A stretch of DNA of 23,212 nucleotides from a virus. The stretch covers positions 1 to 23,212 of the IMG/VR virus record IMGVR_UViG_3300044695_002071; one strand, written 5' to 3'. Below, one piece after another: positions 9,055 through 16,192 of this stretch (positions within the stretch are counted from its first letter, which is position 1; every line of letters starts with the position of its first letter). The notes beneath the pieces are model-generated. The model did no database searches. It was not told where the DNA came from and saw only the letters and a list, made by a program, of their open reading frames with translations. The translations under genes were made by a program, and so were the position numbers.

Positions 9055-10583
9055 TACGACCCCATCCATGAGTTAAGGGCAGCGCCCTGACTTGAGTACG
9101 TTGATCTGCGAATTGTACCTTTATATTCCCGATGTGCAACAGGAAACGCAAACGTCAGCGCGATAGCGTCTGCGCTGTCGGGTGATGCTAACCCCCGTGC
9201 CTTCATCTCTTTCTTGCCTTCTAGGTAAATCGCCCCTTTACTGTCGGGCTTCATCATAGGGCTAATCAGGTCGGTCTTGAGCATCTTCTCGTTTGGAACG
9301 CTAGCCGTCTTGAGCCAATCCTTCATTGTTCCCCAGATCTGCGCCCGCATATTGCCATACATCATGGGGTTCTTGCTTTTGTTCGCGAAGTTTACCCCGC
9401 GGATCTTGTACCGCTGCTCCTTGAGTCGGTCGACTACCCCAGCCCCTAGCCCGCCTTCGTCGATGGCAACCACCGCTGGCTGGTACTGCTCGATTGCTTC
9501 GATGACGTGGCCGACCACCGTCATGGTGTCGTCGCCCTTGAACCTGCGGATCTCTACAATATCCCGTCCTTGCCGCACTGCAATAACCGTACTGTCCGAG
9601 CCGAACCGCGCTGGGTCTACCCCAATCACGATGGGCGCGGAGTCGTCCTTGTGTTTGTCCCGTTTCATGGCTTCGTCTACCAAAGTTGAAGGGATGAACT
9701 GATCGTCGCCTTCTGAGGGGAACGAGCCATAGACCTCAACGTGCGCCTGGTAGGAATCAGCGCCGTATTCTTCAATAATCTGGTTGTAGACGTTCTTGTC
9801 CGTGCCTTCGACATCCCTCGCGTCCACTTGCCTAGATTGCCAAAAGTCACGTTTGCTACCCTCGATTGCTTCGTAGAAGTAGCCCGTATTGCGCCGCGGA
9901 TTGCTAAAACAGCACCAAAAACGGTTCGGTGTGTTTTCCGTAAAGAACCCCGAGGTCACCGCCCAGATGGAGTCGTCAATACCTGACGCCTCGTCAAACA
10001 CGACCATTACCCCGTCGTAGTTGTGGACTCCCGCGAACGCGTCCGGATTCTCAGCCGACCACAGCCGCCCCTCTAAGTTCCAGTAGCGGGTGCCTTTCTT
10101 GAGGTCACGCTCAACCAGCTCGGTCAGCCATTTGGCAGGCATGACGCGGGTGGCGCTGATTTCCCACCAGTGGGTGTTGATCGACATCGACGACCACTTA
10201 GTGATCTCAGCCCATGTGACACTTCTGAGCTGCGACTCGCTGTTGGCACTAACGATCACGGTAGATCCGATCCGGGTAGTCATCATCCATAACACTAACC
10301 AGCTCACTAGGGCCGACTTGCCAATACCACGGCCTGACGCAATCGCTAACCTTAGTACGTCAAAGTCAACCCTGCCGTTGTTGCGCTTGATGTGGTCTGC
10401 CAAGTCAGTTAACACCTGGCGCTGCCACTTGCGTGGCCCAGTAAAGTATTCCAAGGGCGTACCGGCTTGCCCCCACGGGAACGCAAACATCACAAACGCT
10501 AGGGGGTTGTCTTTGATGCTTGGCGTCCAAAGCCGCGCCATGAGTTCTTGTTCATCTTGCGCAGAATAGCGGGTAGTTTGCAT
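9054..10583 (-). CDS. Terminase large subunit
   Basis: The packaging motor ATPase and headful/cut nuclease, 509 residues. Visible motifs: an adenine-binding-like Gln in the RKWQRQVL segment (51-58), Walker A SGRGIGKS (83-90), Walker B VMVVFDEAS with D197-E198, and coupling motif around SANSES (112-117). The RNase H-like nuclease half has D323 in VIGVDPARFGSDST, D375-E376 in AIDEGGLGAGVVDRL and the C-terminal acidic pair near SPDSADAIALTFAF. All expected catalytic positions appear intact. The start overlaps the terS stop by one base (TAATG). Together with terS it would recognise phage DNA concatemers, dock on the portal and fill the head. Confidence 0.93.
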   Translation of the reverse strand: MQTTRYSAQDEQELMARLWTPSIKDNPLAFVMFAFPWGQAGTPLEYFTGPRKWQRQVLTDLADHIKRNNGRVDFDVLRLAIASGRGIGKSALVSWLVLWMMTTRIGSTVIVSANSESQLRSVTWAEITKWSSMSINTHWWEISATRVMPAKWLTELVERDLKKGTRYWNLEGRLWSAENPDAFAGVHNYDGVMVVFDEASGIDDSIWAVTSGFFTENTPNRFWCCFSNPRRNTGYFYEAIEGSKRDFWQSRQVDARDVEGTDKNVYNQIIEEYGADSYQAHVEVYGSFPSEGDDQFIPSTLVDEAMKRDKHKDDSAPIVIGVDPARFGSDSTVIAVRQGRDIVEIRRFKGDDTMTVVGHVIEAIEQYQPAVVAIDEGGLGAGVVDRLKEQRYKIRGVNFANKSKNPMMYGNMRAQIWGTMKDWLKTASVPNEKMLKTDLISPMMKPDSKGAIYLEGKKEMKARGLASPDSADAIALTFAFPVAHREYKGTIRRSTYSSQGAALNSWMGS

Positions 10584-11035
10584 TAGGCTGCTTTTAGCTT
10601 TTGTTTGGTGGGTAGCTCTTTGAAGTCTACAGTTTGGGCGGGTTGGCTTTCCAGAGCGTTGATAACTCTTGATTGCGCTGATTCAAGCGCTGCCGTGATA
10701 GATATTCGTTGTTCAACGTCGATTGAAAGTTGCTGTTTGGCAACCCATCCGTGCTGGTGCTGGAGGACTGCGAGGGCGGCTTTGGCGTCACCTTCTTTTG
10801 CAGCAAGGTGCAAGACTTCAGACATTTCACGCTCTCCATCTGCTCTCCCTTTGAGTTCGGCGTATTCGGCGATTGGGTCAAACAAGATTAATTGACGGTA
10901 TTCGGTCGGGGTCATTCCGGCGGCTAGCGCCAACGAGTCGCCCTTAAGCCCGAGCTTGGCGGCTTTCATGATGGCTTCTAGCCTGCTTTCGGTGGCTTCG
11001 AGCTTGCGAGGTTCGTAGTGGAAGCTAGTGAACAT
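10583..11035 (-). CDS. Probable terminase small subunit
   Basis: This 150-residue helical protein has a helix-turn-helix-like N-terminal segment (IMKAAKLGLKGDSLALAAGMTPTEYRQL, residues about 22-50, in two parts joined by a turn at Gly), followed by helices around GDAKAALAVLQHQHGW and a Lys-rich end. Small terminases have this arrangement and bind the packaging site before handing DNA to the large subunit. Sequence identity in the family is low, and the call relies on the direct TAATG overlap with terL. The start ATG at 11035 lacks a clear Shine-Dalgarno site and lies 5 bases from a GTGAT/ATCAC palindrome. An internal ATG (IMKAAK) cannot be excluded as the true start. Confidence 0.72.
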   Translation of the reverse strand: MFTSFHYEPRKLEATESRLEAIMKAAKLGLKGDSLALAAGMTPTEYRQLILFDPIAEYAELKGRADGEREMSEVLHLAAKEGDAKAALAVLQHQHGWVAKQQLSIDVEQRISITAALESAQSRVINALESQPAQTVDFKELPTKQKLKAA

Positions 11036-11081: not shown

Positions 11082-11176
11082 GGGGGGGGTGGGCTTTTTG
11101 TGAAAAGAAAAAAAATTGTTCGTGGAACCTACACCGCCACACATCCCTAGCCCCCGGCCCTACCCCCCCCTATTTT
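11076..11176. repeat. Imperfect inverted repeat with G8 and C8 runs
   Basis: The left arm (11076-11094, A5-T-G8-T-GGGC) is complementary to the right arm (11157-11176, GCCC-TA-C8-TA-T5) apart from two single-base bulges. The arms are about 62 bases apart. The structure could extrude as a cruciform or fold in single-stranded DNA or RNA. Homopolymer runs this long are also prone to sequencing error, so the exact run lengths need care. Confidence 0.6.
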
Positions 11177-11198
11177 TAGCTGCTAGCTTTAGGGCTAA

Positions 11199-11303
11199 TA
11201 GCTCACGCTATGAGCTAGTGGCCGAGTAGTAGCTCATTTTGTGAGCTTGTGCCAGGCGGATAATGCTGCATAGGGTTTACCCTAGTAGCTCATAAAATGA
11301 GCT
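11199..11303. promoter_or_regulatory. Three AGCTCA-N5-TGAGCT dyads
   Basis: Perfect dyads with the same half-site and a 5-base spacer occur at 11199-11217 (7-bp arms with flanking T/A), 11231-11247 and 11287-11303. The spacers differ (CGCTA, TTTTG, TAAAA) while the half-sites are identical, the signature of repeated binding sites for a dimeric regulator or replication protein. Confidence 0.65.
11271..11284. repeat. TAGGG-TTTA-CCCTA dyad
   Basis: A perfect 5-bp inverted repeat with a 4-base loop sits just before the third AGCTCA dyad. It may be part of the same control region. No U-run follows, so it is not a terminator. Confidence 0.45.
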
Positions 11304-11316
11304 TCTCCCAGGGAGA
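11304..11316. repeat. TCTCCC-A-GGGAGA palindrome
   Basis: A perfect 13-base odd palindrome lies between the third AGCTCA dyad and the first TGTGGACAA copy. Possible protein-binding site in the control region. Confidence 0.45.
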
Positions 11317-11318
11317 GC

Positions 11319-11694
11319 GTGGACAATGTGGACAATGTGGACAATGTGTTTTTAGTTGATAGCCAACAGGCTTGGGCGCGGTACTTGTGGACAATGTGGA
11401 CAATTAGTTTTTAGGTTGTCCACATGACCCACAAACCCCAAAACCTTTTGGCAAATTGCACGGGGCGCGGGCGCGATTTGTGGACAATGTGGACAATGTG
11501 GACACCCCCTTTTAAGTCGCTGACTTGTAACCATGCGCCCAACTGACATATAAATATGTGATATTCATTGAATAGCCTTAAAACAATTGTCCACATTGTC
11601 CACAAACCAACCAAAAGGCTGATTTTATAAGGCTCTCACGCCCCGATTTGTGGACAATTCAGCCCTTTCCAACATTGTCCACACGCTATCCACA
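11319..11694. repeat. Array of GTGGACAAT / ATTGTCCAC 9-mers (DnaA-box-like)
   Basis: The 9-mer GTGGACAAT occurs in direct orientation at 11319, 11328, 11337 (three in tandem), 11387, 11396, 11480, 11489 (with a partial copy at 11498) and 11650, and inverted as ATTGTCCAC at 11586, 11595 and 11674, plus TTGTCCACA at 11416. CTATCCACA at 11686 is one base from the canonical TTATCCACA box. TTGTCCACA differs from the E. coli DnaA consensus at one position and equals the box preferred by some other bacterial DnaA proteins. A 17-base direct repeat, TCCACATGACCCACAAA, is at 11419-11435 and 11689-11705. Candidate initiator-binding sites. Confidence 0.75.
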
Positions 11695-11746
11695 TGACCC
11701 ACAAAACGACCCACAAAACTATTTGTATCTTTTTTGCAAATAACGC

Positions 11747-11831: not shown

Positions 11832-12158
11832 ATGAAACAGACACTAAACAAAGACCAATTTCGCTTTGCTTTCAATGAAATTCGCCCTAATAATTTCAGT
11901 TATGAGGCGCTTGGGATGTTGTTTGATTACCTCGAAGAAATCGATGAAAGCATGGAATTTGACCCTATCGCCATTTGTTGCGACTTTACAGAGGGCAATT
12001 TTCAAGAAGTCGCTAATGAGTTAGATGATGAAATTGACCTAGAAACCGTTGGTTTAAATGAGGAAGAAACGGCGCAAAAAGTCGCGGATTACCTCAGCGA
12101 AAAAACAACCGTTTTGGGTATCACATCCGATAATTTTATTGTTTACGCTAATTTCTAA
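11832..12158 (+). CDS. Acidic 108-residue phage protein, unknown function
   Basis: First gene of the plus-strand small-gene operon, preceded by AAAGGAAA at good distance from ATG 11832. The product is strongly acidic: NFSYEALGMLFDYLEEIDES, then EFDPIAICCDFTEGNFQEVA, an acidic middle and an end reading DNFIVYANF. The YEALxxLFDYLEE...FDxIAICCxF pattern recurs in small early-type phage proteins; I do not know an assigned function. High negative charge over a short compact fold is seen in DNA-mimic anti-restriction proteins, which is one possibility among many. It lies downstream of the promoter with an embedded palindrome and is likely early. Confidence 0.75.
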   Translation: MKQTLNKDQFRFAFNEIRPNNFSYEALGMLFDYLEEIDESMEFDPIAICCDFTEGNFQEVANELDDEIDLETVGLNEEETAQKVADYLSEKTTVLGITSDNFIVYANF

Positions 12159-13868: not shown

Positions 13869-16169
13869 TTACTTAACTAATACCATTTTGGGCGGTGGAT
13901 TTTCCTCCACCATGCGCCTTAGCTCTGACTTGCTTAAATCTGCCATCTCAGGGCAAGCGAATATATGCTTCTTAGTGTCAAAATCCCGCGACTTGATGCG
14001 CCCGCAGTCAATCCAACCCGCTTCCTTTAGCGCATGAAGTAACGCAGCCTGCGGTACTTTGACACCGCTTGGAGCTTGGCCCGCCAGGCGATCGCACAAA
14101 GAATGAAAGGGCGAACCGATCACACCTCGAGCAAACTCGCTCTTACGCTCCCTTAGCATATCGACTAGATAAGACTCAGCCATAGACATACCATGCTCAA
14201 CTAAGTTTGCTTTGAACTCCGTCCACATTGGCGGGGCAGATGGGTTGAACTGCAAAACATCACGATCACGCAAAAAGCGCGCGATCATACCGAACCCACC
14301 GCCTCTGTACCAATCCCAAATTTTCTTGGCTTGGCGCGAATCCATACGGGGCGCAGTTGACCAAACACAAAACCAACGTCGATCCTGACTAGCAAGCGAA
14401 ATAGGCACGGGGTCATTACTAAACGCTAATACAAACAGACGATTAGCCATATAGTACGGATGCAAGCCCTTACGGTTAATTGGCAACATTTCTGGCGGGG
14501 CCGCGATGATTGGTTTTAACTGGTTTGCAAGTTGCCGACGCGTGGCTGCGTCAGGCTCTTTAAGTTCGTTAATAATTAAAATTTCGGATTCTAACTGATA
14601 ACCCCATTGGCTATTCACGCTGTTATTGTCCATAATCCCGCGGTTTTTCAAATGATCGCCACAAACCGCCCAAATAAATGGCGCCCAAAACGTGTCTTTA
14701 CCACTTCCTTCATCACCCGCGTGTAGAATCGCGTGGTTGACCTTGATCTCAGGATGTTGCACCTTAAAAGCCATTACATCAAGAATATGATCTAACTCTG
14801 CCTGCTCAGGCACTAATTCTTGACAATGGTCAAGCCACATAGAAATGTCACCGTCACGCAAATTCTGAACGTCTGGGCGCGCGTCGCGCCACCGATTACC
14901 AAACAGGTCACCGTCGCGGGTAACGATCACATCCTCGCCCGCAGCGTAAGTAACACCAACCAAGGCTTTGGCGCCCATCGCTTGCCTATTCTCATCAAAG
15001 CAGATCGACGCCTCGACCTTACGGGCGGTGTGAATGGACTTGCAAGGAATATGACGGAACAGGGCGTTGAACGTCTGACGGCCAACCTCACGCCTGTCTT
15101 GCATATCAAAGTAGGACTCATCGTCTTGAATGTAAGCAAAGCGGTTATACCAGTCTGCCTTCTCAATCCGTCCAAGTTCTTTACGCTCAACCTCAGCGAT
15201 TAGCTCGGCTGCGGTGTCGCGGTAGACTTCGTTTGGGGTTAATTTTGACAGGGCAGCGGACATCTTTTCTGCGATCAACTCATCTCGCAAACCGTGATCG
15301 ACCGTTGGGCCACCGTTGTCGGCTACCCAATCCAAAAACATTTGCGAGCTAAAGTCCACGCAATGCCCATGCAAACAGCAATAACTACGATCTAAGGGTT
15401 TGTATCTACCTTCAATGTTGCCATCGGTATGTTCGCCGTTGTTGGGGCAGACCACACCCATCCAACCCTCGCCGTTGGGCGCGGACAGTACCAAGCCCTG
15501 CTTGTTAAGCCACGTCATTACCGAGTCTTTGCCCGTGTCAGCAAGGCGAATAGGATTGTTTTGTGCCGTGTCCGTTGGGTCAGGCACCACATCAAGGGCG
15601 GTGCAGATGTCAGCCAAAGTGTACTCACGCTCAGGGTGGAACTCAACTAGGACGGAGGCAAAGCTACCGCGCCCAGGCTTGAGATTGACTGAACCAGGCA
15701 GACGGAAGTTGCGAACGGCGTTGGTTGCGCCAGGATCGGTGTAGCCTGCCTTGGCAATCGCCTTGATAGCTGCGGTGAAATCGCCCTTCGATGGTTGCTC
15801 ACTAAACGCGTAGCCCCACTGGTACGAGCCTTCGGACGTTTCCATGATCCATGTAGGCGCCAAGGGCGGCTCTTTGGACTTGGTGCCGATGTCATCAAGC
15901 ATCATCACAAGGACGTATTCGCAGTTGGCTGCGGACGCTGATACCTTGCCATCGGCAAAGCGGTCAAGAATAAATGAGCCTGTATTGCCGTAGATTGCCC
16001 AGTCTTTCTTGAGCTTGGCCGTAGGCAAGAAAGCAGGCCACGTACACTTGATCGTGCCATCAGCATGGCTCTGCATCAGCCCGTTGCCGTCTAACTGTGG
16101 CTTTTGACGCACAATTAAAGCGGTTTCGCCCTCGGGGGCTAAGTTCGTGATATATTCTAAAAAGTTCAT
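13869..16169 (-). CDS. Primase-helicase (RepB-type primase plus DUF5906-like helicase)
   Basis: This 766-residue replication protein has two parts. Residues about 1-190 follow the RepB-like primase pattern, with the acidic pair D92-D93 in VLVMMLDDIGTK and RNFRLPGSVNLKPG (153-166) as likely catalytic elements. A possible zinc motif follows: CPNNGEH (241-247) and CCLHGHC (264-270). Residues about 430-720 form a superfamily 3-type helicase/ATPase with Walker A GDEGSGKDT (485-493), an IINELKE Walker B-like segment and an Asn/Arg sensor region near FVLAFSNDPVP. It would prime and unwind phage DNA. I use ATG 16169 (AAAGGAA upstream) over TTG 16172. Last gene of its leftward operon. Confidence 0.88.
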   Translation of the reverse strand: MNFLEYITNLAPEGETALIVRQKPQLDGNGLMQSHADGTIKCTWPAFLPTAKLKKDWAIYGNTGSFILDRFADGKVSASAANCEYVLVMMLDDIGTKSKEPPLAPTWIMETSEGSYQWGYAFSEQPSKGDFTAAIKAIAKAGYTDPGATNAVRNFRLPGSVNLKPGRGSFASVLVEFHPEREYTLADICTALDVVPDPTDTAQNNPIRLADTGKDSVMTWLNKQGLVLSAPNGEGWMGVVCPNNGEHTDGNIEGRYKPLDRSYCCLHGHCVDFSSQMFLDWVADNGGPTVDHGLRDELIAEKMSAALSKLTPNEVYRDTAAELIAEVERKELGRIEKADWYNRFAYIQDDESYFDMQDRREVGRQTFNALFRHIPCKSIHTARKVEASICFDENRQAMGAKALVGVTYAAGEDVIVTRDGDLFGNRWRDARPDVQNLRDGDISMWLDHCQELVPEQAELDHILDVMAFKVQHPEIKVNHAILHAGDEGSGKDTFWAPFIWAVCGDHLKNRGIMDNNSVNSQWGYQLESEILIINELKEPDAATRRQLANQLKPIIAAPPEMLPINRKGLHPYYMANRLFVLAFSNDPVPISLASQDRRWFCVWSTAPRMDSRQAKKIWDWYRGGGFGMIARFLRDRDVLQFNPSAPPMWTEFKANLVEHGMSMAESYLVDMLRERKSEFARGVIGSPFHSLCDRLAGQAPSGVKVPQAALLHALKEAGWIDCGRIKSRDFDTKKHIFACPEMADLSKSELRRMVEENPPPKMVLVK

Positions 16170-16192
16170 CAAATTCCTTTCGTGAGGGATAC

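Follow-up and report, generated by a model that had tools for sequence, protein, structure and literature searches.

A two-orientation array of short repeats beside the small terminase gene (terS) of an uncultivated freshwater phage is, with a probability of roughly 80%, the iteron block of the phage replication origin, recognised by a primase-polymerase/SF3 helicase that the phage itself encodes. Three residues in the wing of the C-terminal domain of this helicase (727, 729 and 732) probably dictate both the sequence and the spacing of the origin repeats, residues and repeats having been rewritten together many times among related phages, and this would give the Tail of NrS-1 polymerase a role in origin recognition. 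The window analysed here is the whole stretch of 23,212 bp from IMG/VR record IMGVR_UViG_3300044695_002071 (positions 1 to 23,212), and its structural genes are P22/epsilon15-like.

A repeat array between divergently transcribed genes

Units of TTGTCCACA are present at 11318-11683 of the window as 11 exact copies and two copies with one mismatch, in both orientations (Table 1), and six pairs of head-to-tail neighbours among them are spaced by exactly 9 bp. A preliminary description of this DNA had reported such a dense 9-mer array together with a DnaA-box-like 9-mer (CTATCCACA) and a 17-base direct repeat (TCCACATGACCCACAAA), and all three are borne out; it had placed the array at 11319-11705, which is the correct location but slightly too short, as degenerate GACCCACAAA units extend it to 11719. 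Over the whole window there are 19 matches to TTGTCCACA with at most one mismatch, against 5.55 ± 2.22 expected, and none of 100 shuffles reaches this count. The densest 400 bp of the window contains 13 units, with Markov resamples (n=60) giving no more than three.

The array lies within a 796-bp gap, with terS (10583-11035, minus strand) on one side and small plus-strand genes starting at 11832 on the other, and transcription diverges around it as had been described. The left-hand units are mostly on the minus strand and the right-hand tandem pair is on the plus strand, with an A+T-rich stretch between them. Cumulative GC skew, which had been put forward as a marker of the origin, gave no usable signal, either in the window or in the eight full-length relatives examined.

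Table 1. Coordinates of the repeat array and of the proposed initiator gene in the window.
Feature	Coordinates	Strand or orientation	Basis
Iteron array: 13 TTGTCCACA units (<=1 mismatch) plus degenerate YTATCCACA/GACCCACAAA units	11318..11719	both orientations	
Exact TTGTCCACA copies (starts)	11327, 11336, 11386, 11395, 11416, 11479, 11488, 11587, 11596, 11649, 11675	-, -, -, -, +, -, -, +, +, -, +	
One-mismatch TTGTCCACA copies (starts)	11318, 11497	-, -	
Three tandem units, 9-bp period	11318..11344	-	
Two tandem units	11386..11403	-	
Unit plus degenerate TGACCCACA unit; holds first 17-base repeat copy	11416..11437	+	
Three tandem units	11479..11505	-	
A+T-rich stretch (about 70%) within array; candidate unwinding element	11540..11586		putative role
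Two tandem units	11587..11604	+	
Lone unit	11649..11657	-	
Unit, CTATCCACA box, second 17-base repeat copy, degenerate GACCCACAAA units	11675..11719	+	
CTATCCACA box	11686..11694		
17-base direct repeat TCCACATGACCCACAAA	11419..11435 and 11689..11705		
PrimPol-SF3 helicase ('VapE-like', 767 aa), proposed origin-binding initiator	13869..16172	-	Pfam, profile, model
Predicted C-terminal winged-helix domain, about residues 651-757 (codons)	13902..14222	-	AlphaFold2 model; weak but uniform winged-helix matches
Wing, codons 725-736 (RIKSRDFDTKKH), proposed specificity residues K727, R729, D732	13965..14000	-	covariation; translation checked

Arrays at the same site in related phages

A terminase search yielded 80 related loci, and the arrays of these relatives sit at the same terS-flanking intergenic site, built from units that differ in sequence and period: TTGTCCACA and TGACCCAAA with a period of 9 bp, TGACYCACAA with 10 bp, TGACAATT with 8 bp, and TGACTNACA and TGACTAACA with 8-9 bp; further units also occur, and most of these sequences do not resemble DnaA boxes. 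The preliminary description had proposed looking for the array in related genomes; its position is shared, but its unit sequence and period are not. Relatives with terminases 92-96% identical to that of the window have an array at the same place with units (TGACAATT, TGACTAACA) unlike DnaA boxes, and more distant relatives have TGACCCAAA or TGACYCACAA arrays. A clear array was not seen at the loci of some relatives, including some phages with divergent wings. Seven contigs were matched in a bacterial genome collection, all of them in MAGs, and an array is detectable in the available sequence of two of the seven; a MAG contig with the K727/D732 wing (KSRRHDS) has TTGTCCACA units, as predicted, and one with neither K727 nor D732 (ASRDHTT) has a unit other than TTGTCCACA.

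The primase-helicase and its C-terminal domain

The 767-residue protein encoded to the right of the array has Pfam matches to DUF5906 (1.4e-9) and, slightly below the curated cut-off, to RepB_primase (3.4e-5), and together with the model matches these identify a primase domain fused to an SF3 helicase. The model resembles S-2L PrimPol (Z 13.9) and RepB' (Z 12), and a sequence-profile search with the helicase matches NrS-1 polymerase. The model aligns with the full extent of the NrS-1 CTR, the Tail included (Z 25.2; 368 residues, model 336-741 on 308-718), and with the SaPI5 primase-helicase (7ola/7om0) at Z 18.0. The protein is of the NrS-1 type, having a homologous helicase body and the same C-terminal layout.

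AlphaFold2 models the C-terminal 120 residues with good confidence as helices and a two-stranded beta-hairpin, and residues 727, 729 and 732 fall in the loop of this predicted hairpin, i.e. the wing. The domain is predicted to be a winged helix. Its leading PDB matches are largely winged-helix proteins but are weak (Foldseek E >= 0.27; best VIA Z 6.8), with nothing found by Foldseek at E <= 0.001, and a sequence-profile search of the domain against solved structures gave chance matches only.

Covariation of the repeat unit with wing residues

In a first alignment of the relatives, the residues between GWxDxG and KKH vary with array class. Five helicase queries recovered about 300 further loci, which were dereplicated to 216. 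Array type was defined, blind to the protein, from over-represented 7-mers in the terS-proximal region, and a sliding window of eight residues was scanned along the helicase against array distance with whole-protein distance removed (partial r). Residues 725-732 are the sole peak across all 767 residues, with a partial r of 0.51 (n=129; 0 of 500 permutations) and of 0.47 in the full-length set (n=121), and the next best region of the helicase reaches an r of 0.14-0.16. The highest-ranking single columns are 732, 727 and 729.

Contingency counts are 53/7/0/100 for D732 against a GTCCA-type array, with seven of the 60 D732 phages not GTCCA-type by the simple rule, and 86/2/1/71 for K727 against a YYCACA-type array. 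A control tree of 160 phages was built with the last 130 helicase residues left out, and on it each of the two residues changes at least 25 times. D732 provides 19 supported independent pairs, in which the array follows in about 15 and opposes in none (p about 6e-5), and K727 provides 18, in which it follows in about 16.5 and opposes in none (p about 1.5e-5). The table of wing class against unit is nearly diagonal: KSRxxD phages have 5.6 copies of TTGTCCACA per locus, against no more than 0.1 elsewhere, ASGDFQ-type phages 6.8 of TGACCCAAA, KSRAHT-type phages 3.2 of TGACYCACAA, and ASHDYP-type phages 7.3 of TGACAATT. The patterns in this class table and the binary D732 and K727 rules were picked after part of the data had been seen, and the sliding-window scan and a test that starts from DNA only were not. 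In the latter, a search of viral contigs for exact matches to TTGTCCACATTGTCCACA gave 15 new non-redundant helicases, all 15 of which have K727 and 14 of which have D732, with E in the remaining one.

Shared inheritance or cassette exchange was considered as a cause of the covariation and rejected. The DNA 0-1200 bp after the helicase gene gives an r of 0.00-0.03 with the array, compared with 0.47 for the wing, and helicase residues 738-767 give 0.07; recombination linkage is unlikely because neither the DNA that separates the helicase gene from the array nor the last 30 residues of the protein carries a signal. In this covariation the proposed initiator and the repeats are matched in specificity, and binding of the array by the C-terminal domain of the helicase is strongly implied.

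The same scan bears on a different use of the units by this protein, in which, like TTTGGTTA for NrS-1 polymerase, they would be recognised in the template by the PrimPol domain as places to make primers and would not be duplex initiator sites. The N-terminal domain is indeed a PrimPol-type primase, and NrS-1 polymerase is reported to prime at an 8-nt sequence (PMC8718748). Against this, no window in the PrimPol domain or the linker tracks the array and only the C-terminal wing carries a signal, so that we rejected this reading as very improbable.

Host DnaA as the reader of the array, starting replication there from TTGTCCACA units that serve as DnaA boxes, was one of the two options raised in the preliminary description. 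The resemblance of TTGTCCACA to the TTATCCACA consensus and the adjoining CTATCCACA box speak for it, as does a small DnaA-HTH protein encoded by one related lineage (MW202483, L334, L335). However, DnaA-box units are not kept at the site in relatives: DnaA-like boxes (TTWTNCACA) number 0.0-0.2 per locus outside the K727/D732 class in spite of the common array site, and because these other classes are essentially without such boxes, reading by host DnaA cannot explain the varied arrays. Moreover, the period of abutting units is 8, 9 or 10 bp in different phages, and residues of the phage helicase predict which unit is present. As a general reader of the arrays host DnaA was rejected, and it is improbable as the agent of initiation here; the likeness of the window's unit to a DnaA box looks coincidental, though DnaA may perhaps bind in this one, TTGTCCACA, class. 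The part of the earlier proposal that stands is the origin itself, still the best functional reading of the array, and its alternative of a phage initiator, which is strongly supported.

The position of the array 280-680 bp upstream of terS, itself a variable gene, would also suit a packaging (pac) site read by the adjoining small terminase. TerS does not covary with the array, though (raw r 0.04, best window 0.11; n=87). A relative whose TerS is 93% identical to that of the window (L008) has a different unit class, yet one with only 61% identity (L016) has the same class. A pac site is strongly disfavoured, with a negligible probability.

Proposed initiation and comparison with known systems

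P4 alpha combines a primase, a helicase and a C-terminal winged-helix domain that binds the origin, and the ori1/crr type I iterons of P4 are short and in both orientations. The window helicase has the same layout of primase, helicase and C-terminal domain and likewise accompanies short iterons in two orientations. It differs in that P4 has two sites and the window a single array, and P4 alpha was not detected as a relative in the searches made; its absence from the VIA matches listed is not informative on kinship.

In the SaPIs the C-terminal domain of Rep recognises the origin iterons, and the C-terminal domain of Cch2 binds the direct repeats of its origin (PMC7581432). The likeness of the phage protein to SaPI Rep/PriRep, and also to SCCmec Cch2, is that of a primase-helicase that would use its C-terminal domain to recognise short repeats of an origin lying downstream of the gene (PMC7581432), and the model aligns with the SaPI5 enzyme at a Z of about 18. 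This likeness is by fold only, as the sequence search found no SaPI protein. Here, in contrast, the genome is that of a tailed phage, the proposed origin is about 2 kb off, past small opposing genes, and the units are of 8-10 bp in abutting tandems and both orientations.

The best match of the window helicase in both sequence profile and fold is NrS-1 polymerase, a PrimPol-helicase of a deep-sea phage. According to the available portion of its description, the NrS-1 genome has two copies of the 8-nt priming site, and the Tail has a novel fold and an unclear role, its deletion weakening DNA binding; an iteron array is not mentioned in that portion (PMC7102993). In PLE, a Vibrio satellite, the DNA-binding domain of the initiator RepA covaries with the origin, as here, and the nuclease Odn may select for diversification (PMC8263062). 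The two differ in that PLE RepA is a RepA_N initiator without helicase or primase, with semi-palindromic iterons of about 30 bp, and changes by swaps of the whole domain, compared with a few wing residues in these phages.

By analogy with SaPI Rep, Cch2 and P4 alpha we infer that the array functions as an origin. In the mechanism that we propose, the C-terminal winged-helix domain would read each 8-10 bp unit, with K727, R729 and D732 setting the specificity as the covariation suggests. Many subunits would gather on the two opposed sets of units and assemble helicase rings, by analogy with SaPI Rep and P4 alpha; the A+T-rich stretch would open, the rings would self-load, needing neither host DnaA nor a loader, and synthesis would be primed by the N-terminal PrimPol domain. 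Recoding of initiator and units together would then provide each phage lineage with a private origin.

A further reading, that helicase binding to the array chiefly serves an operator, copy-control or incompatibility function (as at P4 crr or in a repressor array) and that the origin is elsewhere, is unlikely. The array does lie between divergent transcription units, and plasmid iteron arrays often regulate too. Self-loading helicases, though, generally load by way of binding to origin repeats, tandem units are confined to one locus in the nine full-length relatives that bear the TTGTCCACA unit, and an A+T-rich stretch lies inside the array, all of which argues against this reading.

Escape from satellites or from origin-directed nucleases, as with PLE and Odn (PMC8263062), is a plausible driver of origin diversification, as is the need for co-infecting phages to avoid cross-replication. 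It has long been asked how an initiator and its origin can switch specificity in concert while replication is maintained, and for this question the present phages supply about 190 natural variants, 18-19 independent switches, single-residue predictions and periods of 8, 9 and 10 bp; with these variants and residue-level predictions, specificity swaps are therefore directly testable with short DNA and one domain. The proposed role for the Tail would account for an unexplained part of a studied polymerase family (NrS-1), and the window's array is a warning that DnaA-box look-alikes in phage origins may be unrelated to DnaA.

Other features near the array and the helicase gene

The DnaA-HTH protein of MW202483 and its relatives L334 and L335 is a free-standing DnaA domain IV helix-turn-helix protein (PF08299) encoded near the helicase (L087, 7083-7379), and the array unit of these phages differs again, being of the ATGTAAAC type. 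Four other loci (L127, L264, L209 and L340) have long perfect short-period tandem repeats downstream of the helicase (e.g. CGACCGC, ACCGGCTG) that are unlike iterons. A PADLOC search gave zero matches.

To the left of the array, window positions 11196-11312 contain three AGCTCA-N5-TGAGCT dyads and a CTAGGGTTTACCCTAG palindrome close beside the array, and similar dyads with A+T loops are also found in relatives. TerS is strongly mosaic among relatives, with about 54-97% identity, and within the near group the TerL sequences share 92-99% identity. A second conserved non-coding element is found between terS and the array, at 11100-11175, reading GGGGTAGGGCC ... CACGAACAATTTTT on the terminase strand, which is a candidate packaging site or terS promoter; GGTAGGGCC and AACAATTTT are each present in 113 of 179 relatives, irrespective of array class.
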